A DNA stretch of 39,802 bases from a virus, in IMG/VR virus record IMGVR_UViG_3300014913_000030, positions 1 through 39,802 of that record; one strand, given 5' to 3'. Shown here piece by piece: positions 5,892 through 38,340 of the stretch; position 1 is the stretch's first letter, and each line of letters begins with the position of its first letter. The notes under the pieces were generated by a model. It did no database searches, was not told the origin of the DNA, and worked only from the letters and a program-made list of their open reading frames with translations. The translations under genes were made by a program, and so were the position numbers.

Positions 5892-6190
5892 CGGATCAGA
5901 TCGGACTGGGGTTTGATACCACCGCGATATACCTCCGGTGTTGGAACTGTGGCCACCAGGCCATGGGCCCCAAGGAACAGATCGGAACTGGTGAGCCCAC
6001 GGAAGCGCACCCAGTCACCCGTCATGGAAGTGGCCTGATCGATCTGTGTGAATGCGGAAGCTGTGGGGCACGTGAAGCCCGGGGGGACGCATACCTCCCC
6101 GGGGACTGGTGGCCCAAGGCGCAACAGTGGATCGACGCCCAGCGGGTTGCTGGAAAGGGTCACATAGTTGCGGACCGGAGGGCCGATTGA
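5888..6190 (+). CDS. Zinc-ribbon hypothetical protein
   Basis: 100 residues from GTG 5888, overlapping the HNH gene by GTGA. Cys18 and Cys21 (CWNCGH) pair with Cys54/56 and Cys59 (CECGSCG) to form a ribbon over nearly the whole protein, followed by a Trp-rich helix (WWPKAQQWIDAQ). It is coupled to the methyltransferase through a TTGA overlap. Function unknown; probably a nucleic-acid or protein adaptor. Confidence 0.7.
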   Translation: MTDQIGLGFDTTAIYLRCWNCGHQAMGPKEQIGTGEPTEAHPVTRHGSGLIDLCECGSCGAREARGDAYLPGDWWPKAQQWIDAQRVAGKGHIVADRRAD

Positions 6191-8220
6191 AACCGCGGGA
6201 GGTACACCTGGGTGATTGCGTCGAGGTGATGCGGTCATGGCCTGATCACAGCGTCCATGCGATCTGTTGCGATCCTCCTTACCTTTTGCGGTTCATGTCC
6301 GCGGACTGGGACACGGCGGAGGACGCCCAGGGGATGGAAGCGTGGCACCGTGCGTGGCTGGCGGAAGCGTTGCGGGTACTCTTGCCTGGTGGTCACCTGA
6401 TCGCGTTCAGCGGATCGCGGACGTTCCACAGGCTCTATTGTGCGGCGGAGGATTCCGGATTCGAGATCCGGGACACGCTGGCCTGGATGTACGGGGAAGC
6501 AATGCCCCACGGGTTGGACATCAGCAAGGCGATCGACAAGGCGGCCGGGGCGGAACGCAAGGTGATCGCCATGGGTGACAGCGGGAAGGATCGCAACGTG
6601 CTGAACGCTGCCCTCCACCCGGACACGTTCGGGGGGCGGTACTCGATCACGGAACCCGCCACGGAGGAGGCCAAGCGTTGGGACGGATGGGACACGGCGC
6701 TGAAACCAGCCTGGGAACCGATCCTCCTGGCACGTGCCCCGATACCCGGCACCATCCATGAAAACGTACTGGCGCACGGCACGGGTGGCCTGAACGTGGA
6801 CGGGTGCAGGATCGGCACCACCAAGGACGTGCCCGCGTCCGCCAAAAAGGTGGGGCGATCGGAATACACCGTGAGCCTCCCAGGTGCAGCGGAGGGAAAG
6901 GGATTCGATCCGAACACGGGACGGTGGCCAGCCAACGTGATTCTAGGACATCATGCCGGGTGCCAGGAGGAACGGTGTCACCCGGGTTGTCCCGTGGGGG
7001 AACTGGATCGGCAGAGTGGGATCAGCGTGTCCACGGGTGGGCCCGGGTTCAAGGATCGGAACGTGTACCGCGCCAGCCAGGACGGATCGCTGTCCGGCAC
7101 ACCAGGCCCTGGCACCGTCCTGGGGTACGGGGACACGGGCACCGCCTCCCGTTTTTTCTACCAGTCGAAGGCCACCAGGGCGGAGCGGTGGTTTTTTTGT
7201 GCCCAGTGCGGGGACACGTACCCAGGCGCGGATTTCAGATACCACAAGGAACATGAGGGGATCACGGTTCACCCCACCCAGAAACCGGAGGAGGTCATGT
7301 CCTGGCTGGTGAAGCTGATCACACCCAGGGAGGTGGTTGACTACGTATGCCCATCATGTGATGGTTGTGGATGTGATGCGGAAAACAACAAAGCGGTGTC
7401 AGGTGTGCGGTCAAGTGTTGATCCCGGGAAGGCGGACCACGAAATATTGCAGCGTGGCGTGTCGAGGGAAGGCGCAACGGAAGCCGCCGATCAAGTGTCA
7501 GCAATGCGGGGTGATGTTCAGGAAAAAGAGGTCAAGACCACGGAGGTATTGCTCCCAGGAATGTGCGATCGAGGCGAGACAACCAAGGCCACGGACGTGC
7601 GAGGAGTGCGGGGAGGATTTCGTTCCGACGAAAAGCACGGTCAAGAGGTTTTGTTCACGGGGGTGCGCGGCCAGGTGGACGGGAAGACGGAAGAGGAAAC
7701 AGGGTGCGATTGTGACGGCCAAGGGATACCGGATGTTGTACAGGCCGGAACACCCGATGGCCACCAAGCGGGGATACGTGATGGAACACAGGATGATCAT
7801 GGCGGATCACTTGGGACGCCTCCTCCTGTCAGGGGAGGTGGTCCATCACTTGAACGGGATTCGATCGGACAACAGGATCGAAAATCTGGCCGTGATGGCA
7901 AAACGCCAACACGATCGGAAAGCGCGGTCACCTGTGAAACCTATTCAGTGTCCTCATTGCGGGGGGATGATTCGGACCTCCGCACGTGTGCGAAGTGTGG
8001 AACCACTTTGATCAAACGAGTGCAACCCGGGATTGTGCTGGATCCTTTTATGGGAAGCGGCACCACAGGCGTGGCGGCCACGCGCCTGGATCGTGAGTGG
8101 GTGGGCGTCGAGGCCGATCCCACTTTCCGCAAGATCGCAACGGCCCGGATCGAGCGGGCCGCGTATGAACTGGAACAGGAACGGAGGCAAGGTCGCCTCC
8201 CGTTCATGGAGGGACCATGA
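6187..8220 (+). CDS. Beta-class DNA adenine/cytosine-N4 methyltransferase carrying a ~200-codon internal insertion
   Basis: 677 residues as read. Motif IV (DPPY, 29-32) is near the N-terminus and motif I (DPFMGSGTTG, from 619) at the C-terminus. This is the beta order of N4-cytosine/N6-adenine methyltransferases, which transfer a methyl group from S-adenosylmethionine to DNA. HPTQKP, which normally stands shortly before motif I, is instead separated from it by ~220 residues. The stretch between Cys388/Cys391 (CPSC) and Cys601/Cys604 (CAKC) reads as low-complexity shadow sequence and coincides with an HNH endonuclease gene in another frame. The TTG start at 6187 has GGAGGG at 6177-6182 and overlaps the upstream stop. 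Whether the enzyme tolerates the insertion is unknown. Confidence 0.85.
   Translation: MKPREVHLGDCVEVMRSWPDHSVHAICCDPPYLLRFMSADWDTAEDAQGMEAWHRAWLAEALRVLLPGGHLIAFSGSRTFHRLYCAAEDSGFEIRDTLAWMYGEAMPHGLDISKAIDKAAGAERKVIAMGDSGKDRNVLNAALHPDTFGGRYSITEPATEEAKRWDGWDTALKPAWEPILLARAPIPGTIHENVLAHGTGGLNVDGCRIGTTKDVPASAKKVGRSEYTVSLPGAAEGKGFDPNTGRWPANVILGHHAGCQEERCHPGCPVGELDRQSGISVSTGGPGFKDRNVYRASQDGSLSGTPGPGTVLGYGDTGTASRFFYQSKATRAERWFFCAQCGDTYPGADFRYHKEHEGITVHPTQKPEEVMSWLVKLITPREVVDYVCPSCDGCGCDAENNKAVSGVRSSVDPGKADHEILQRGVSREGATEAADQVSAMRGDVQEKEVKTTEVLLPGMCDRGETTKATDVRGVRGGFRSDEKHGQEVLFTGVRGQVDGKTEEETGCDCDGQGIPDVVQAGTPDGHQAGIRDGTQDDHGGSLGTPPPVRGGGPSLERDSIGQQDRKSGRDGKTPTRSESAVTCETYSVSSLRGDDSDLRTCAKCGTTLIKRVQPGIVLDPFMGSGTTGVAATRLDREWVGVEADPTFRKIATARIERAAYELEQERRQGRLPFMEGP
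7376..8011 (+). CDS. HNH homing-type endonuclease nested out of frame inside the methyltransferase gene
   Basis: About 211 residues in the second frame relative to the methyltransferase. Three Cys4 zinc fingers come first (CQVC..YCSVAC, CQQC..YCSQEC, CEECG..FCSRGC; residues ~8-97). An HNH_3-type nuclease domain follows: EHRMIMADHLGR, then GEVVHHLNGIRSDNRIENL (His157-His158, Asn160) and His179. A last CPHC pair sits near the C-terminus. The start is uncertain: ATG 7376 or 7361 lack a good ribosome-binding site, while TTG 7337 follows AGGGAGGTGG but adds residues that look like shadow. The stop is inside the resumed methyltransferase sequence. G+C of two 60-nt pieces counted by hand is ~57-58%, slightly below neighbours. 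Confidence 0.85.
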   Translation: MRKTTKRCQVCGQVLIPGRRTTKYCSVACRGKAQRKPPIKCQQCGVMFRKKRSRPRRYCSQECAIEARQPRPRTCEECGEDFVPTKSTVKRFCSRGCAARWTGRRKRKQGAIVTAKGYRMLYRPEHPMATKRGYVMEHRMIMADHLGRLLLSGEVVHHLNGIRSDNRIENLAVMAKRQHDRKARSPVKPIQCPHCGGMIRTSARVRSVEPL

Positions 8221-19371: not shown

Positions 19372-19444
19372 GGGGTCATGGCGCAATTGGTAGCGCACCG
19401 GGTTTTGGTTCCGGTGGTTGCAAGTTCAAGTCTTGCTGGCCCTT
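19372..19444 (+). tRNA. tRNA-Gln (anticodon TTG)
   Basis: A full cloverleaf: acceptor GGGGTCA/TGGCCCT (G:T at the first pair and one internal T:G), D stem GCGC/GCGC, anticodon stem CCGGG/TCCGG with loop TTTTGGT (anticodon TTG), T arm GCAAG-TTCAAGT-CTTGC, discriminator T. CCA is not encoded. It reads CAA codons. It lies between an unassigned gap and the HNH/TerL pair. Confidence 0.9.
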
Positions 19445-19493
19445 CCGGATTCGATAATTGGCAACCTTGTCAAATCCTGATAGCCTTCGATCG

Positions 19494-19910
19494 ATGCCAG
19501 CCAGGAAAAAGACCTGTACGGGGTGCGGCGAGTCCAAGCCCCTGTCCGCGTACAACCGGAAGGGGAAGGGCCACCAGGCCACGTGCCGGGAATGCAACAA
19601 GGCATATCTGAAACAGCATTACGCCAACAACCGGGATTACTACAGGGGCAAGGCCGCCAAGTACCGTGGACTGTTCCGCACCAAGATCGCTGAGTACAAG
19701 GCGGCCAAGGGCTGTGATCGATGCGAGGAGGATCACCCCTCTTGCCTGGAGTTCCACCATGCGAATGGACGCAAGGAGGGGAACGTGTCCAGGATGATCG
19801 ACCGTGGAAGCCAGGCCACGGTGTGGGCGGAAATTAAAAAGTGCGTGGTGCTGTGTTCCAATTGCCACAGGAAATTGCACTGGGACGCACACCGGGCGGA
19901 GGCCCTGTGA
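19494..19910 (+). CDS. HNH endonuclease next to terminase
   Basis: 138 residues from ATG 19494. An N-terminal Cys4 finger (Cys8, Cys11, Cys31, Cys34) is followed by basic helices and then the HNH site: CDRC (74-77), LEFHHANG (His88-His89), VVLCSNCHRKLHW (Cys121, Cys124, His125, His129). In many HK97-type phages an HNH protein encoded next to TerL is needed for packaging-related DNA cleavage. The GTGA overlap with TerL supports that role. A homing origin is possible because a tRNA lies just upstream. Confidence 0.85.
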   Translation: MPARKKTCTGCGESKPLSAYNRKGKGHQATCRECNKAYLKQHYANNRDYYRGKAAKYRGLFRTKIAEYKAAKGCDRCEEDHPSCLEFHHANGRKEGNVSRMIDRGSQATVWAEIKKCVVLCSNCHRKLHWDAHRAEAL

Positions 19911-21394
19911 GCACCAGCACCGATCCCAGCGTGGCCCGTGCCATGCGAATGATCCGCGCCCGCAAGGAGGCCCTCCGTATCAAGGCACAGGGGGACGCCT
20001 CCGTGATGGTGGAGGAAACCCTCCGGGATGAATCGGGCCAGTCACTGATCCAGGCTGGGTTCCACCGTGAGTGGCAAACCAACCTGGACGCCCACGATCG
20101 CCTGGTGCTGTTCGCACCCGTGGAACATGGGAAAACGATCCAGGTGATGGTGGGGCGGACCCTGTATGAACTGGGCACCAGGTTAGAGCGTGGCGAGTAC
20201 CCACGGATCCTCCTGGTGGGGCGCACACAGAAACAGGCATCCAAGCCCCTGGGCACCGTGCAAGCTCACATCGAACGGAACACGGACCTCCACCGCGTGT
20301 TCCCCCACCTGGTGCGTGAGCGTTTCGACAGGTGGACTACCTCGCACATCAGGTACCGTCCGACACGTCCCACCACCGCCAAGGATTTCACGGTGGAGGC
20401 CGTGGGTATCGGTGGGGCCGTCATGGGCGGGCGCTATGACGTGGCGATCCTGGACGACGTGCTGGACCTGGAAAACACGTGGACCCCGGATCAGCGGTCC
20501 AAGCTGATCGAGTGGTTCGATTCAACGATCCCTGGGCGCATTGTCGAGGGCGGATCGATCTGGATCATCGGGACCGCGTGGCACCCTGGTGACCTCATGC
20601 ACCAGATCGGCAAGCGTGGGGGATACGTCACCAGGCGGTACCCGGCTGAGATCCCAGGACGTGGCAAGAAAAAGGCCACCACGCTGTGGCCGTCGAGGTG
20701 GTCCCCTGAACGGTTGAAGGCACGGCGGCAGGAACTGACCCCGTACAGGTACGCCCAGCAAATGCTGTGCAAGGCCGTGAGTGATGAAACCTCCAGGTTC
20801 AACTTGGAATGGTTCACCCGGTGTATCAAACAGGGACAGGGCCTCCCCTTCCCCGCACCGCATGGGATGGAGGTCACGGTCACGGGCGTGGACCTGGGGG
20901 TGAAGCGGAAGGCCACCAACGATGAAACCGCCATGGTCACGTCCGGGGTGGACACGCTCACCCACAAGCGGCGGATCCTCAACATCATTCACGGACGCTG
21001 GCGCAAGCGGGAGATCATCGCACGGGCGGAGGCAATCTATCGCAAGTTCGGCGGGGTGTTCATGGTGGAGGACAACGCTGCCCAGAATTATCTAACCCAG
21101 GATCTTCAAGAGGACACCGCGATCCCCGTGTGGCCGTACCAGACCAGGGGCCCCAGGAAACACGATCCCGTGTTCGGGATCGAAGGGTGGGGCGTCGAGT
21201 TGGAAAACCGCAAGTGGGAATTCCCAGCGGACCGCCGGGGCCGTGTCCACGCTGCGATCCAGTTGCTGATCGATCAGGCCCTGGAATGGAAGCCCACGGA
21301 ACACACCGGGGACGTCCTCATGGCCCTGTACTTGTCCCTGGAGGGTATCCGCCGCCATGAACAGCTTGGCGGTGGCACCATTGGCGTGGGCTGA
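19907..21394 (+). CDS. Terminase large subunit (TerL)
   Basis: 495 residues from GTG 19907, preceded by GGGCGGAGG. The ATPase has a Walker A-like APVEHGKT (70-77) and Walker B AILDD (180-184). Coupling-type segments IIGTAWH (~220-226) follow. The RNase H-like nuclease shows TGVDLG (Asp329), FMVEDN (Glu389/Asp390) and a final TGDVLMAL (Asp469). This motor cuts and pumps DNA into the prohead through the portal. The length is normal for the family. The portal is ~14 kb downstream, an unusually large separation. Confidence 0.92.
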   Translation: MSTSTDPSVARAMRMIRARKEALRIKAQGDASVMVEETLRDESGQSLIQAGFHREWQTNLDAHDRLVLFAPVEHGKTIQVMVGRTLYELGTRLERGEYPRILLVGRTQKQASKPLGTVQAHIERNTDLHRVFPHLVRERFDRWTTSHIRYRPTRPTTAKDFTVEAVGIGGAVMGGRYDVAILDDVLDLENTWTPDQRSKLIEWFDSTIPGRIVEGGSIWIIGTAWHPGDLMHQIGKRGGYVTRRYPAEIPGRGKKKATTLWPSRWSPERLKARRQELTPYRYAQQMLCKAVSDETSRFNLEWFTRCIKQGQGLPFPAPHGMEVTVTGVDLGVKRKATNDETAMVTSGVDTLTHKRRILNIIHGRWRKREIIARAEAIYRKFGGVFMVEDNAAQNYLTQDLQEDTAIPVWPYQTRGPRKHDPVFGIEGWGVELENRKWEFPADRRGRVHAAIQLLIDQALEWKPTEHTGDVLMALYLSLEGIRRHEQLGGGTIGVG

Positions 21395-21403
21395 TCCCGG
21401 GGC

Positions 21404-21432
21404 TTGACCTCACAGTGTTAACCCTGTAAGTT
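21404..21432 (+). promoter_or_regulatory. Sigma70-like promoter
   Basis: TTGACC (21404-21409), 17-nt spacer, TAAGTT (21427-21432), 10 nt after the TerL stop. GTTAA lies in the spacer. It would drive the block of small genes that follows. Confidence 0.65.
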
Positions 21433-21449
21433 TTGGTTTCTTGCCTGTC

Positions 21450-21530
21450 ATGGCCCTGGGTGGTGACGGGATCGCCAATGGTGACGGGAACGCACCACCC
21501 GGGGCATGGGCAAGGGAGGGGGCTGAGTGA
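21450..21530 (+). CDS. Possible very short gene
   Basis: 26 codons from ATG 21450 to TGA 21528-21530 (MALGGDGIANG...). Its stop overlaps the GTG of the next gene (GTGA), as for real neighbours, and the start lies ~11 nt after the expected transcription start. There is no clear ribosome-binding site and the composition is low in complexity. Weak call. Confidence 0.3.
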   Translation: MALGGDGIANGDGNAPPGAWAREGAE

Positions 21531-21712
21531 ACACGGAGGCGCACATGGTTGGGACGGAGGCGGGGGACGTGGTGATGGAACTATCCCTGGTGAACCCGGA
21601 GGCGATCACCTGGGACGTGCTGGACGGTGCGATCATTGGCATGGCCACCAGGGGGCCCGGCAAGCCGGACGTGGCCGTGTATGACCGGGACAAGTGCCTT
21701 TTGGCATACTGA
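21527..21712 (+). CDS. Small hypothetical protein
   Basis: 61 residues from GTG 21527, preceded by AAGGGAGGGGG. Beta-rich with alternating hydrophobics (DVVMELSLVNPEAITWDVL, GAIIGMATRG, DVAVYDRDKCLLAY). No family recognised. One-base overlap with the next gene. Confidence 0.6.
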   Translation: MNTEAHMVGTEAGDVVMELSLVNPEAITWDVLDGAIIGMATRGPGKPDVAVYDRDKCLLAY

Positions 21713-21828
21713 TGGACCAGGGAATGGACAGGGATGCCGCACAGGACTACCTGGGGCACAACGTGGAGGGCGCGTGGGTAGGTGACCACACACCGATCAT
21801 GGTGGAGGTACTTCCCGGCAAACGATAG
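21712..21828 (+). CDS. Very small hypothetical protein
   Basis: 38 residues (begins MDQGMDRDAAQDYLG, ends VLPGKR) from ATG 21712 to TAG 21826-21828. A short helix then a strand (TPIMVEVLPG). Position in the overlapping run and in-frame length support it. Function unknown. Confidence 0.55.
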   Translation: MDQGMDRDAAQDYLGHNVEGAWVGDHTPIMVEVLPGKR

Positions 21829-21848
21829 ACGGAGGCAACATGAGCAAC

Positions 21849-21864
21849 AACCAACCAACCAACC
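21849..21864 (+). repeat. (AACC)4 tetranucleotide tract directly after a start codon
   Basis: Four perfect AACC units begin 9 nt into the reading frame opened by ATG 21840, which itself follows a good GACGGAGGCAAC ribosome-binding site. As sequenced, the ATG reads a 94-codon frame with no recognisable domain. With one unit removed it reads straight into the downstream zinc-ribbon protein. It has the form of a contingency (phase-variable) tract. Confidence 0.8.
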
Positions 21865-21963
21865 GACAAAGCGATCGATCACCATTCCCACTATCAGTGG
21901 AAGCGGGGGGAGGGCCTTCCGTTCCGGCCACCGTGTGGGCTGATCCAGTGGAAGGGCACCGCC

Positions 21964-22449
21964 GTGTGTGCGGACATCCACTGTGCCTGTGGTCACCACA
22001 GCCACCTGGATGTGGAGTTCATGTATTACGTGCGCTGTCCCAATTGCCTGACGGTGTACGCGGTGGACGATCACGTGAAGCTGATCCCGCTTCCGCCGGA
22101 CCAGCGGGCCTGGGTGGAGGCTGAGTGCGCCAACGTGATCCAGGAGGACGGGGTGGAACCCAGGTACCACGGCAACGCGGATCTGGACTGTGACCTCCGC
22201 CTCCCCGGGATCTTCCGCGCCAACCTGGTGCGGCTGTTCCAGGGGTACCGTGGGAAGCCAGCGGACCGGGCCACGATCCTGGACATGGCAACCAGGGTGG
22301 CGGGGCTGATCAGTGAGTACGCCTCCACGGAGGTGTCCATGGCCTTGGCCCAGGTGTTTGTGGCGCAACCGATCCGTGATGGACTGCGGGCCATGTTCAC
22401 CCGGGACAACATCGGGATCACGATCCACAATCCCGGGGGGAAGCCATGA
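21964..22449 (+). CDS. Zinc-ribbon protein, apparently out of frame with its start
   Basis: The given coordinates cover the part from the first in-frame start codon, GTG 21964 (161 residues; GAAGGG upstream). The frame is open back to 21844 and the upstream part looks protein-like (HHSHYQWKRGEGLPF, RPPCGLIQWKGT), leading into CADIHCACG and VRCPNC. I think the true start is ATG 21840, giving 201 residues after loss of one AACC unit or a ribosomal frameshift. The C-terminal part (YRGKPADRATILDMATRV) resembles the next gene (YQDKPLDRHVIGEVKRAL), so the two are paralogues. Function unknown. Confidence 0.65.
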   Translation: MCADIHCACGHHSHLDVEFMYYVRCPNCLTVYAVDDHVKLIPLPPDQRAWVEAECANVIQEDGVEPRYHGNADLDCDLRLPGIFRANLVRLFQGYRGKPADRATILDMATRVAGLISEYASTEVSMALAQVFVAQPIRDGLRAMFTRDNIGITIHNPGGKP

Positions 22450-22940
22450 GCGGGCGCAATCCCTTTGATCGGATCCATCCAGTGACCTGTCCGTGGTGCG
22501 GGCATGAGGTGACGATCCCCAGCAAGCGGAACGGGAGGGCTGGCCACCTGGACATGGCCCAGCATTCCAGCACGGTGTCCGCCCCGTTCCTGTTCGCACG
22601 GGCGCGGATCTTGGATCTTCACTTCACCTGTTCCGAGTGCGGGACCGTGTGGGTGGATCGCTGGACGTTCCACGGGTGCGACATCATGACGGAGGGCGAT
22701 CGGTCGAAGATCGATCCCCGCCTCCTGGACATCCCGGAGGACATCAGCCTGGGGCTGTACGATGGGATCCACGATCTGTTGTCCCCGTACCAGGACAAGC
22801 CCCTGGACCGTCACGTGATCGGGGAGGTCAAGCGGGCCCTGGTGGACGTGTTGAAGGAGGCCCTCCAGGATGTGCGGACGGACACCCAGGGGCGTGACAA
22901 CATCAGCAACCGATCGCGGGATCCCGGGGAGGTGCCGTGA
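22446..22940 (+). CDS. Zinc-ribbon protein, paralogue of the preceding gene
   Basis: 164 residues, ATGA overlap. Ribbon: Cys15-Cys18 (CPWCGH) and Cys63-Cys66 (CSECGT). The C-terminal helical part carries the Y-x-x-KP-x-DR-x-x-I pattern shared with the upstream gene. Ends in an Arg/Asp-rich tail. Function unknown. Confidence 0.7.
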   Translation: MSGRNPFDRIHPVTCPWCGHEVTIPSKRNGRAGHLDMAQHSSTVSAPFLFARARILDLHFTCSECGTVWVDRWTFHGCDIMTEGDRSKIDPRLLDIPEDISLGLYDGIHDLLSPYQDKPLDRHVIGEVKRALVDVLKEALQDVRTDTQGRDNISNRSRDPGEVP

Positions 22941-23308
22941 TGGGGCTTGTTGATCGACTGGTCACGGCCGCCCGGGGGGATTTCGAGGCGTGTTCACACT
23001 GGCCTCCCAGTGCGGACACATTCGAGTGCCGATCGGAATGCAAGTACCGCCGGACGTGCGAGGCGTACCGGGCCCTGGTCCAAGCTGGCCACGTGATCCT
23101 GGTGACGGTGTACAAGGACAAGGAGGCCATGGGCAAGGCGATCGAGGTGGAGGAGGTCAAGGCCCGGTCATTTGTCCAGGGGCATGAACGCCCCGGGATC
23201 GTGTGCCAGGAATTCAAGCCGGGCACCCCGGGGGATGGTGGGTGCCTGGGATCTGGACTGCCGGAATGCGATCACTGTGCGGACCTGGCACCGGAGGAGG
23301 ATCAATGA
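22940..23308 (+). CDS. Cysteine-rich hypothetical protein
   Basis: 122 residues from ATG 22940 (GTG 22937 also possible). Nine or more Cys: CSHW, CRSECKYRRTCEAY, CQEF, then CLGSGLPECDHC. The CxxxCxxxxxCxxx spacing could bind zinc or an iron-sulfur cluster; sequence alone does not decide. Coupled to the membrane protein downstream. Confidence 0.6.
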   Translation: MGLVDRLVTAARGDFEACSHWPPSADTFECRSECKYRRTCEAYRALVQAGHVILVTVYKDKEAMGKAIEVEEVKARSFVQGHERPGIVCQEFKPGTPGDGGCLGSGLPECDHCADLAPEEDQ

Positions 23309-23622
23309 TGGACCTGGGCATGATCGGGGCCGTGGTGGTTTTTGTCCTGGGGGTGGTGTTCGGGCTGGGCGCACCGTGGATTTTTCGCTGGGTGCGGTGG
23401 CTGGTGTCCCGTGCGTGGTCCTGGGTGTGGCTCCGGTGGGTGAGGTGGAGGCGCAAGCCCAAGGGCCCTCCCCCGCCGTATCATCACAACTGCCGCTGTG
23501 CGGTGGTGGGCGTGGACATGGCGGACGGTCCGGACAGGTCCGCGATCGTGGTGCGTGACCAGGCGGGGAAACACCACGCCCGGGTCATGGAAGCCCCCAA
23601 GCGTGGACGGAGGGACACATGA
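23305..23622 (+). CDS. Small membrane protein with Trp/Arg-rich tail
   Basis: 105 residues from ATG 23305. One hydrophobic segment (~5-28) is followed by a Trp/Arg-rich amphipathic stretch (FRWVRWLVSRAWSWVWLRW) and then GPPPPYHHNCRC. The PPYHHxCRC element resembles the PPYHHRCRS end of MuF-type head proteins (see 38341), though the rest does not. Function unknown. Confidence 0.6.
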   Translation: MMDLGMIGAVVVFVLGVVFGLGAPWIFRWVRWLVSRAWSWVWLRWVRWRRKPKGPPPPYHHNCRCAVVGVDMADGPDRSAIVVRDQAGKHHARVMEAPKRGRRDT

Positions 23623-24152
23623 GCGGGCAAACCAACCTGGACCTGGGGGACCACCCCGGGGATCTGGAGGTCACGGCCCTGACGATCCGGGAACCATGGC
23701 TGGAATTGATCCTGTCCAGCGTGAAGGACGCGGAATATCGGACGTGGAGGCCCCACACGTTCCCCAACCCGGTGCTGTTGTGTGCCGGGAAGGCGTGGGA
23801 CAAGGAGGCCCAGGAGGAATTGGCCAGGGACAGCGGGCTGGCCCCAATGCTTACCAGGGCGGAACACTGGATGGGACACGCCCGGGCCCTGTGCGTTTTC
23901 GATGAGGCCCAGCCAGCGGGTGTTGGTTGCTGGGCATGGAGGATCCACGTGGTGGTACCGCTGGCCCACCCGTTCCGTGTGCGTGGTCAACAGGGTTTTT
24001 TCCAGGTGCCTTGCAAGGTGGAACACCTGGAGGTGGATCTTTTGAAAGCGGTGGCGTACAGGCGCACGGAGGACACCCTCGTGTGTAACTGGGGCCACCG
24101 CCACGATCGGGCACGGGACAGGATCCGCAAGGTCATGGCGGGGTACCTGTGA
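23619..24152 (+). CDS. ASCH domain protein (PUA-like)
   Basis: 177 residues, ATGA overlap. The ASCH signature is clear: LTIREPWLELIL, a K-D-A-E-Y-R-T-W segment, LLCAGKAW, GHARALCVFDEAQ, and the late W-A-W-x-I and VPLAHPFRVRGQQGFFQVP. ASCH/PUA-like domains bind RNA or modified nucleotides, and one member hydrolyses N4-acetylcytidine. First of three such proteins in the window. Substrate unknown. Confidence 0.8.
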   Translation: MSGQTNLDLGDHPGDLEVTALTIREPWLELILSSVKDAEYRTWRPHTFPNPVLLCAGKAWDKEAQEELARDSGLAPMLTRAEHWMGHARALCVFDEAQPAGVGCWAWRIHVVVPLAHPFRVRGQQGFFQVPCKVEHLEVDLLKAVAYRRTEDTLVCNWGHRHDRARDRIRKVMAGYL

Positions 24153-26087: not shown

Positions 26088-26289
26088 GTGCGTCCACCGT
26101 TGGAAAGAAACCGGGAGGCGGTTCAGGCTTTTGACCTTGGACAGCGTGGACGATCAGGGCGTGGGCCACAGGTACAAGTGGGAAGACGCCCGGAGGATGG
26201 TGTGCGAGGTGTGCCAGGCGGTGCGCGTCGAGTTTATGCGGGAGGGGGCCTGGTACCACTCGCACACCGTGAGAAAAACGGCCCCATAG
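26062..26289 (+). CDS. Zinc-ribbon protein whose stop lies inside a tRNA gene
   Basis: 75 residues from ATG 26062 (GTG 26080 alternative). CVHRW and CEVCQ enclose a basic loop, a one-zinc ribbon. The TAG at 26287-26289 is within tRNA-Glu (T8-A9-G10), a 10-nt overlap, so tRNA processing would cut this mRNA. Function unknown. Confidence 0.6.
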   Translation: MTWAWGVAECVHRWKETGRRFRLLTLDSVDDQGVGHRYKWEDARRMVCEVCQAVRVEFMREGAWYHSHTVRKTAP

Positions 26290-26351
26290 ATCAGTGGTTA
26301 GATCACTGGCCTTTCAAGCCAGCAACACGGGTTCAAATCCCGTTGGGGTCA
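26280..26351 (+). tRNA. tRNA-Glu (anticodon TTC)
   Basis: Cloverleaf: acceptor GGCCCCA/TGGGGTC, D stem GATC/GATC, anticodon stem CTGGC/GCCAG with loop CTTTCAA (anticodon TTC), T arm ACGGG-TTCAAAT-CCCGT, discriminator A. CCA is not encoded. Reads GAA, a codon used often in this window. Confidence 0.92.
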
Positions 26352-26365
26352 CTGGAGGTACTGAC

Positions 26366-34933: not shown

Positions 34934-35287
34934 ATGGACGGCACATCACAGGTGGAAGCCCAGGCAATCCACGTGGCCTCCCCCATGGGGGATCTGATCG
35001 CTGCTGGTGAGAAAACCCTCCTGGTGAAAACCCACAGGTTCGATCTGGCCGGGCGTGAATTCATGCTGGCCCAGGAGGGCGCGATCCTTGGCCGGGTCAA
35101 GTTCGGGGACGCGGTGAAGGTGGAGGGGATCGGGAAGCTCGAAAGCCTCCAGGAACGCCACCGCATCATGGCCGCGGAACGTCAAAGCTGGTGGGGTGAT
35201 TCCCGCGTGTTTTGGACCTGGCCCGTGGAGGTGCTGGACAGGCCGATCCCCCCAAGCCGTACACGCTGGGCGGGGTGCAGACTCTGA
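34934..35287 (+). CDS. ASCH/PUA-like small protein
   Basis: 117 residues from ATG 34934. The pattern AIHVASPMGDLIAAGEKTLLVKT, a strand with REFMLAQEGAILGRVKFG and a late helix with WW and VFWTWPV looks like a short ASCH-type domain (LI..G.KT.LVK, then I.G.....G). It sits directly before the portal gene. Third ASCH-like protein here; similarity is weaker than for the others. Confidence 0.55.
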   Translation: MDGTSQVEAQAIHVASPMGDLIAAGEKTLLVKTHRFDLAGREFMLAQEGAILGRVKFGDAVKVEGIGKLESLQERHRIMAAERQSWWGDSRVFWTWPVEVLDRPIPPSRTRWAGCRL

Positions 35288-35331
35288 TCAGTGATGTGGT
35301 GTCCAAGGACGGCACAGGGGAGGTGGTACTC

Positions 35332-38300
35332 ATGCCCACCAAGCATGACGACGGTCTGGCCACCGGGGCCATGGTCGAAGTGGACACCGTGGAACCCGGA
35401 GGCGGATCGCTGGCTCACAGCGTGGGGGCCCTCCTCCAGGGCCAAGCTGATCGCCTGTACGGAGGCCAGCACCATGACGGCCAGGGCCCCATGCCATACG
35501 GTGGCATGGCACCAGTGGCCAAGGGTGCGGAGGACACGGTGGAAGCCACCAGTCTCCCGCCGGATGAAACCATGTATGCGGCGTTTGTCGCGGCGGGCGC
35601 ACTGGAACCTCCGATCCCTCCTGATTTCTTCATTGAAATCTTGCGCCAGTCCAACGTGTTGAAGCAATGCCTGGACGTGTACGCCACCAACGTGGACGGG
35701 TTCGGGCACCACTTCGATCCGATCCTCGATCTGGATTCCGACGACGCCACGCGCCTGGTGGATTCCATGCTGGTGGCGGAAGTGCCGGAAGGTTCCAGCC
35801 TCCCGGACGGTGAAGAGGATCGGGAGGGCCTCCTGGAGGCCAGGCTGGAACGGTACCGCCAGGACGCTGCCCTGGAACTGTCCAGGCTGGAGGGCTTTTT
35901 CGACTGGGCCGGGGAGGGCCAGTCGTTTGTCAAGCTGCGGAAGTACACCAGGCTGGATCAGGAACTGATCGGGTGGGGTGGCTGGGAAGTGTTGCGGAAC
36001 GCCAAGGGTGAGGTGTCGAAATTCGTACACGTCCCCGGGTACACGATCCGCCTGTTGCCCAAGGACAAGCAACCCACCAAGATCGTGGAAGTGCAACGGC
36101 ACGGGGCCCCGTGGGAATCAAAGGACGTCCCGGTGTGGAGGTACTTCCGGCGGTTTGTCCACTGGCAAGGTGGCGGACGCCAGGGCGGGAAGATCGTACA
36201 CTTCCGCGATTTCCTGGATCCCCGCACGGTGTCCAGGGACACGGGGCGGTACTATCCCACCGTCGAGGCCATGCACCAGGAGGAGGGCACCCACGCCCGG
36301 GCCGCCAACGAAATGATCTACTTTTCGGACGCCTCACTGGATACCCCATACGGGGAACCCAGGTGGATCGGCAACCTGCTGTCCGTCCTGGGATCGAGGT
36401 CCGCGGAGGAGGTCAATTTCCTGTTCTTTCAAAACAAGTCGATCCCTCCGCTGGTGCTCATGATCAGTGGTGGTGGCGTCACCCCTGATGACGTTGAAGC
36501 CCTGAAAACCAGGATCCGTGATGAACTGCAAGGGGGCCCGGCCAAGCATCACAAGATCCTGATCGTGACCGCGAAAACGGATCCCACCACCGGGCAACAG
36601 CCCACCCTGGAATTCAAGCCACTGACGGAAGCGATCATGAAGGAGGGCCTGTTCCTGGAGTATGACAAGGCCAACCGCTTCAAGGTGGCCCAGTCCATGC
36701 GGATCCCTCCCATCCTGATCGGGGACACCAAGGATTTCAACAGGGCGTGTTATTCGGATGACACGGAAACCTTGACCGATCGTGGGTGGAAACTACACCA
36801 TGAGATTGGACCCGATGAAAGGATCGCCGTGTACGATTCCGAATCGGAACACATCCGTTTCGTGGTGCCAGCGGAAAAGCACGTGTATGACGTGGAGGAT
36901 GAGGAATTGTTGCGGTTTCATAATCGCCACACGGATTGCTTGGTGACATCAGACCACACGATGCTGATCCAATCCGCCCAGGCCAAGGCGGAGGCGCACT
37001 GGGAATCCCAAAAGGCGGAGGAAATCCCGTACAACCGAATCAATGTCAAGCTAGCTGGCAAGTGGAAAGGTGTCGAAGGGGAATCGTTCAAGTTGCCCCA
37101 GACGGAGGGATGTGCCGCGCCGCGCGGACATGATCACGATCGGGTGGTGCCATTCGATACCTGGTTGGAATTTCTGGGTTACTGGATCAGTGAGGGTGGC
37201 CTCCTGATGACAGATCATCCAGCGGCCCCGTACCTGGTGTATGTCGATCAGAAAAAGCCGGAGGTGAGAGAACGGATCCGGGATTGCCTCGATCGCCTCG
37301 GGTGGACATACAGCGTTCAGGAAAAGCCCTGTGGTACAACCCATTTCTTGATTTCCAGCAGGTGCCTCCGTGATTGGTTGGTGCGGAATTGCGGGACGCA
37401 TTCGCATGATAAGCGTATCCCGTGGGAATACCTTGATCTCCCATTGGATCAGTTGCTGATCCTCTTCAATGCCCTCATGGATGGGGATGGTACCGTGGAT
37501 TCTCGGGAGGACAGGGACAGCGGAGCGTACTATTCCTCGTCCACGGTTTTGGCTGGCCAGGTTCAACGCCTACTGATCCAGGCCGGTTGCCGTGCAACGA
37601 TCATACCGGGGACCAGGGCGTGGAGGGTCTGTTTCTGTACAAGAGACACCACACGCCTGAATCTGATCGGGGACAAATACCAGCCCGCCTCCATGGAACG
37701 TGTGCGGTACACGGGACAAGTATACTGTTTCAGCGTTCCGGGATATGGGTTTTTTGTCACCAGGCGCAACGGCAAGGTGGCGATTCAGGGTAACACCGCG
37801 CAAGCCGCCCTCCGGTTTGCGGAAACCCAGGTGTTCAGCGGACTGCGATCGGATTTCGACTGGACGATCAACCACCTGATCATGTCCGCCCTGGGGGCGC
37901 GTTACTGGAGGTTTGCATCGAATCCGCCACCACTCACGGATCCCCTGGACGTGGTGGACATGGTGACCGCACTTTCCAAGGAGGGTGTGATCACGCCTGG
38001 GGAGGGAAGGCGTGAGCTTTCCCGCGTTGGGTTCAACCTCGACAAGATCGAAGAGCCCTGGACAAAGCGGCCCCTGGCCGTGACGTTCAGCGGTGTGGGA
38101 TTCGAGGCTGACAAGGGGGAACGCATCACCCAGGCCCAGGACACCGTGGTGTACGATCCGGAATCACCGGACCCCATGACCCCGGAACAGGCCATGGTCC
38201 AACTGGAGGCCACCATGGAGGAGGCGGTTGCCCAGGGTGACGTGCCCGGGGAAGTACTCCAGCGGTTGAACCTCCGCGCCATTCGCCAACGCCTGGTGCC

Positions 38301-38340
38301 TGGTGGTTCCGACGTGGACCAGGAGGACGGGGATCAGTGA
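35332..38340 (+). CDS. Portal protein precursor containing an intein
   Basis: 1002-residue precursor from ATG 35332, chosen because GGGGAGGTGG is 5-14 nt upstream; GTG 35275 and TTG 35212 are in-frame alternatives. The exteins give a ~653-residue portal: FFDWAGEGQSFVKL, a long beta-rich body (VPGYTIRLLPKDKQ), IVHFRDFLDP, FQNKSIPPLVLMISGG, KIL-IVT strands and, at the splice junction, DTKDFNRA-TAQAALRFAETQVF. The DxNRA-TA junction motif is typical of phage portals. Residues 473-821 are the intein. The portal ring is the DNA gate and the nucleus of capsid assembly. Confidence 0.88.
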   Translation: MPTKHDDGLATGAMVEVDTVEPGGGSLAHSVGALLQGQADRLYGGQHHDGQGPMPYGGMAPVAKGAEDTVEATSLPPDETMYAAFVAAGALEPPIPPDFFIEILRQSNVLKQCLDVYATNVDGFGHHFDPILDLDSDDATRLVDSMLVAEVPEGSSLPDGEEDREGLLEARLERYRQDAALELSRLEGFFDWAGEGQSFVKLRKYTRLDQELIGWGGWEVLRNAKGEVSKFVHVPGYTIRLLPKDKQPTKIVEVQRHGAPWESKDVPVWRYFRRFVHWQGGGRQGGKIVHFRDFLDPRTVSRDTGRYYPTVEAMHQEEGTHARAANEMIYFSDASLDTPYGEPRWIGNLLSVLGSRSAEEVNFLFFQNKSIPPLVLMISGGGVTPDDVEALKTRIRDELQGGPAKHHKILIVTAKTDPTTGQQPTLEFKPLTEAIMKEGLFLEYDKANRFKVAQSMRIPPILIGDTKDFNRACYSDDTETLTDRGWKLHHEIGPDERIAVYDSESEHIRFVVPAEKHVYDVEDEELLRFHNRHTDCLVTSDHTMLIQSAQAKAEAHWESQKAEEIPYNRINVKLAGKWKGVEGESFKLPQTEGCAAPRGHDHDRVVPFDTWLEFLGYWISEGGLLMTDHPAAPYLVYVDQKKPEVRERIRDCLDRLGWTYSVQEKPCGTTHFLISSRCLRDWLVRNCGTHSHDKRIPWEYLDLPLDQLLILFNALMDGDGTVDSREDRDSGAYYSSSTVLAGQVQRLLIQAGCRATIIPGTRAWRVCFCTRDTTRLNLIGDKYQPASMERVRYTGQVYCFSVPGYGFFVTRRNGKVAIQGNTAQAALRFAETQVFSGLRSDFDWTINHLIMSALGARYWRFASNPPPLTDPLDVVDMVTALSKEGVITPGEGRRELSRVGFNLDKIEEPWTKRPLAVTFSGVGFEADKGERITQAQDTVVYDPESPDPMTPEQAMVQLEATMEEAVAQGDVPGEVLQRLNLRAIRQRLVPGGSDVDQEDGDQ
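36748..37794 (+). mobile_element. LAGLIDADG intein in the portal gene
   Basis: 349 residues, Cys1 to Asn349, followed by Thr as +1 extein residue. Block A begins CYSDDTETLTDRGWK; block B has TSDH (67-70). The two homing endonuclease motifs are FLGYWISEG (142-150) and FNALMDGDG (240-248), and block F is VYCFSVPGYGFFV (325-337). Block G is VAIQGN. The residue before the final Asn is Gly, not the usual His. Third-position usage is more A/T-rich than the flanking portal, suggesting later arrival. The site splits the conserved NRA/TA motif, so splicing is needed for a working portal. Confidence 0.9.

Follow-up and report, generated by a model that had tools for sequence, protein, structure and literature searches.

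A frame break at a tetranucleotide tract separates a phage zinc-ribbon gene from its likely start

We find that the reading frame of a small phage zinc-ribbon gene is broken at a perfect tetranucleotide tract, which lies soon after the gene's likely start codon, and that the adjacent upstream gene carries a second frame break at a site that is not a tetranucleotide repeat. The explanation that we favor, at about even odds, is that both are ordinary slippage-type indel lesions in two adjacent small dispensable accessory genes, with no dedicated switch. The window, that is, the whole stretch of DNA that was analyzed, is a 39,802-base IMG/VR record of a tailed phage with a terminase gene (19841-21394) and a portal gene (35212-38340).

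Results

The zinc-ribbon frame and its missing start

The zinc-ribbon locus comprises the following features.

21831-21835, plus strand: Shine-Dalgarno sequence GGAGG, recognized in the sequence.
21840-21842, plus strand: ATG, the probable original start codon for the zinc-ribbon protein, which in the assembled sequence leads into an ORF in the wrong frame.
21844-22449, plus strand: zinc-ribbon reading frame (protein P0001), 201 codons, beginning with the one behind TGA 21841-21843 and running up to the stop; based on translation, coding signal and homologs.
21848-21864, plus strand: perfect tetranucleotide tract (CAAC)4.25, equal to (AACC)4, the frame-break site; based on TRF and the codon-usage break.
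21946-21960, plus strand: QWKGT codons, which lie before GTG 21964 and encode the zinc ribbon's first beta-strand; based on the alignment and on AlphaFold strand 31-37.
21964-21966, plus strand: GTG, the first conventional start in the zinc-ribbon frame, unlikely to be the true start as it comes after QWKGT.
22446-22940, plus strand: next gene, another zinc-ribbon-like protein, with its frame intact and its start overlapping the zinc-ribbon stop (ATGA).

ATG 21840 is preceded by GGAGG at a spacing of 4 nt, which bears out the good ribosome-binding site attributed to it in a preliminary description of this DNA. The ORF that it opens is 94 aa long, ends at 22124 and is devoid of coding signal. 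The zinc-ribbon frame remains open between TGA 21841-21843 and 22449 and is +1 relative to ATG 21840, the distance from ATG 21840 to GTG 21964 being 124 nt; upstream of GTG 21964 it contains no ATG, GTG or TTG. With 4 nt fewer, the stretch between this ATG and the stop would measure 606 nt, which corresponds to 201 aa plus a stop codon. The preliminary description had calculated that loss of one AACC unit would restore a protein of 201 residues and had stated that the zinc-ribbon frame has no good start of its own; its arithmetic was right, and the first conventional start in the frame does lie behind QWKGT.

We scored coding signal as a codon-usage log-likelihood trained on the clear genes of the window. 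The score was negative throughout the frame of ATG 21840 and positive in the zinc-ribbon frame from about 21870 onward, and from this signal the downstream coding frame is beyond doubt. When a two-frame break model was fitted to codon usage, the best break positions all fell at 21850-21864, inside the tract, in agreement with the earlier claim that the frame is lost there. The likelihood of the model was flat within the tract, gain of a 4-nt unit and gain of 1 nt being inseparable by codon usage.

The tract is far longer than chance and, minus one unit, is near chance length. It consists of a perfect run with a period of 4 nt, CAACCAACCAACCAACC, which spans 17 nt at 21848-21864 (4.2 copies by TRF) soon after ATG 21840, and no other tetranucleotide tract in the 39,802-nt window reaches 12 nt. 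For tracts of at least 16 nt, a second-order Markov model predicts 0.005-0.013 per window, and a single one was present in 904 kb of other phage DNA. A three-unit version would be 13 nt long and unremarkable, since 0.4 tracts of this length or more are expected per window. The direct repeats near the tract are all short and offer no basis for collapse in assembly; misassembly via repeats was dropped on this ground.

The QWKGT motif places the N-terminus upstream of GTG 21964

The zinc-ribbon frame matched small proteins of Bacillus phages BSP38, BSP36 and Goe20 and of Gordonia phage LitninMcQueen. A profile scan of IMG/VR led to 80 loci being kept, so that the family is present in at least 80 IMG/VR contigs. 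The invariant alignment columns are Q35, W36, K37, G38, T39, C42, C47, C49, C65 and C68, and the family pattern reads QWKGT..C....C.CG ... C..C. P0001 contains QWKGT, the four zinc-ligand cysteines and an HxD between the pairs (residues 35-39, 42, 47, 49, 54, 56, 65 and 68). It thus has the QWKGT, the CxxxxCxCG and the second CxxC pair of the QWKGT(D)VC family of BSP38, Goe20 and LitninMcQueen, but differs from that family in having A40 in place of a nearly invariant D and in carrying an extra C-terminal region of 90 residues, which is strongly helical in the predicted model and unmatched by BLAST in the relatives. In the AlphaFold model of the protein (mean pLDDT 70.5), QWKGT forms the first strand of the predicted fold.

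We next compared the position of start codons across the family. An in-frame ATG, GTG or TTG precedes QWKGT in 77 of 77 relatives with a detected motif, and a second count gave the same result for 68 of 68 distinct upstream regions. With one exception among the 77, the closest ATG is 1-45 residues ahead of QWKGT. The gene in the window is the sole member examined that lacks an in-frame start upstream of the motif, and the frame has therefore been lost between ATG 21840 and GTG 21964. Once put in frame, ATG 21840 would lie 33-34 residues before the Q of QWKGT. GTG 21964, which the preliminary description had named as the alternative start, is not the native start because the invariant QWKGT is encoded upstream of it; a start there would delete the motif and was rejected. 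From these comparisons, the true N-terminus probably lies upstream of GTG 21964, with ATG 21840 as its likely start.

The family had no PHROG match and matched Pfam only below the cut-off, and a Foldseek search of the PDB with the AlphaFold model returned nothing significant. A profile search of PDB sequences gave weak zinc-ribbon matches only, to TFE and RNA polymerase subunit P (E 0.01-1); on the basis of these, a role as a small nucleic-acid- or RNA-polymerase-binding ribbon would be a guess. The family looks phage-specific, since an exact-motif scan of cellular genome assemblies yielded just two loci. The analysis brings out a widespread and uncharacterized phage zinc-ribbon family, marked by QWKGT, for which there is no Pfam or PHROG model above threshold.

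The upstream gene is also broken

The gene that precedes the zinc-ribbon gene is split as follows.

21527-21712, plus strand: first part of the upstream gene, matching PHROG 13182 profile positions 78-116, with an early end at TGA 21710-21712.
21699-21702, plus strand: TTTT run, the likely second frame-break site; the profile match changes frame here.
21712-21828, plus strand: remainder of the upstream gene, in a frame other than that of the first part, matching PHROG 13182 positions 117-156; this frame is open from GTG 21694.

ATG 21712 and the TGA that ends the first part form a TGATG stop-start overlap (21710-21714). The break lies at or beside TTTT 21699-21702, a site without a tandem tetranucleotide. 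When the halves were joined, the resulting protein matched 38 phage records, and it matched PHROG 13182 (Bacillus phages Mater, Goe8 and others) over its length, with 30-39% identity to five phage proteins. Unlike in these relatives, the gene in the window is divided between two frames: a single frame runs through the break point in 85 of 85 related loci, one of whose alignments holds a stop. Furthermore, a scan of the whole 39.8-kb contig detected no frame breaks besides these two, which are about 150 nt apart; for independent random positions, two breaks this close would be a coincidence of about 1%.

Tract variation among relatives

We also searched for related sequences that carry the tract in other lengths. 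Comparison of 20800-24000 with the phage collection revealed no nucleotide relatives, and no close protein relatives of P0001 were found in viral or GTDB contigs, nor any of the next gene and the last gene. A pattern with exact flanks that accepted other unit numbers had no match in viral contigs, a set from which the records nearest to the window may be missing. Comparison with related phages, which the preliminary description had proposed as a check, showed that the AACC tract is not conserved at homologous loci, none of the 68 distinct relatives having it. Within the 135 nt that precede QWKGT, their longest 4-nt runs measured 6-13 nt versus 17 nt here, a weak test as the relatives are all distant.

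Discussion

Slippage-type lesions in two neighboring genes

Our preferred explanation for both breaks, held with roughly even confidence as stated above, begins with the addition of an AACC unit, or of a single base, to the short tract just after the start. The unit would have been gained through strand slippage on a tract of chance length, and translation from ATG 21840 would then go out of frame, so that the conserved zinc-ribbon protein would not be made from this start. The preceding gene would have suffered a second, independent frame break. The frameshift would be present in the real phage and would probably not have been selected as a switch.

Sequence quality

Assembly or consensus error comes second, with a substantial though smaller chance of being correct. 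Both genes would then be intact in the real phage, and the indels at 21848-21864 and 21699-21702 would stem from sequencing, amplification or assembly within a weak local region. Consistent with this, both breaks lie within 200 nt of each other with no other frame break detected in the contig, both gene families are intact in every relative examined, and the codon-usage signal is normal on either side of each break, with no decay. Two breaks at this spacing in an otherwise clean 39.8-kb contig could equally point to locally poor assembly. However, the contig shows no general tendency to indels: within other genes, all 14 homopolymers of 6-8 nt (G8, T7 and twelve runs of 6) leave the frames intact, and because of this a simple homopolymer-type sequencing error is disfavored and real slippage-type lesions are preferred over a consensus error. 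Moreover, read errors do not typically add one full 4-nt unit to a tract of 17 nt.

Phase variation

The preliminary description had read the locus as a phase-variable gene, in which slipped-strand mispairing would vary the AACC tract within the phage population, three units allowing the zinc-ribbon protein to be made and four units preventing it. Its upstream start and the loss of frame at the tract stand; the on/off switching is unsupported, the tract being unconserved among relatives and the neighboring gene being broken as well, and we regard such switching as improbable. Several properties do speak for it. Perfect 4-nt repeats lie right behind the start, and the frame is off by exactly one unit. 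The tract is at the 5' end of the coding region, its unit length is not divisible by three, the frame breaks inside it and it exceeds the length expected by chance (which the three-unit state does not), as in contingency loci; alternation between the frames was not observed. The same unit, as CCAA, is phase-variable in Haemophilus influenzae, where one glycosyltransferase locus carries 8-16 of them (PMC2651432), and a (GACGA)4 tract, cited in the same paper, switches at a high rate by a change from four units to three, so that four units are compatible with switching as far as length goes. The H. influenzae loci (hgp genes and the glycosyltransferase; PMC2651432) resemble the present one in repeat unit, in having the tract within the 5' end of an ORF and in that gain of one unit breaks the frame. 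In contrast, their tracts are longer, vary between strains and lie in conserved phase-variable genes, whereas the window offers four units, in one sequence, in a phage gene.

Against a switch stand the single tract length, known from one consensus sequence, the absence of the tract from the relatives, the chance length of the three-unit 'on' state and the break in the adjacent gene at a non-tetranucleotide site. A 2025 review of phase variation requires reversible, high-rate switching and cautions that, around the lower limit of rate, evolved loci are hard to distinguish from chance tracts (PMC11868660). A lesion or a fault of sequence quality is the more economical account because the neighboring gene is broken too, and a dedicated switch would explain only one of the two breaks. 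In a single consensus sequence, a switch sampled in its 'off' state would look identical to a lesion. If true, switching would bring an accessory gene of a phage into the class of tetranucleotide contingency loci known from bacteria. On present evidence, the locus illustrates that the neighboring gene should be checked before phase variation is called from one metagenomic consensus.

Recoding and unusual starts

A +1 shift of the ribosome or polymerase in the tract, or a start at CTG 21940, ATC 21874 or GTG 21964, is highly improbable: CTG 21940 would retain QWKGT and a GGAAGG-like sequence precedes GTG 21964, but this GGAAGG merely encodes the conserved WKG and a protein begun at GTG 21964 would lack QWKGT, with which the fold opens, CTG 21940 and ATC 21874 lack a Shine-Dalgarno sequence, of which ATG 21840 has a good one, and programmed +1 frameshifting was rejected, there being no known +1 slippery site or slippery codon pair and no stop codon in frame 0 to provoke a shift.

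Other features of the contig

Elsewhere in the window, an ORF for an HNH endonuclease (7337-8011; HNH_3, E 1.6e-12) lies wholly within a DNA methyltransferase ORF (6109-8220) in a different frame. Matches to methyltransferase lie on both sides of an insert of some 230 residues, which is open in both frames, and no Rfam intron match was found. The portal gene (1042 codons) contains an apparent intein, with the portal match at 325-511 and LAGLIDADG_3 at 751-799; its apparent junctions run from ...DFNRA/CYSDDTETLT... to ...VAIQGN/TAQAAL.... The phage also carries two tRNA genes, for Gln(TTG) at 19372-19446 and for Glu(TTC) at 26280-26352.
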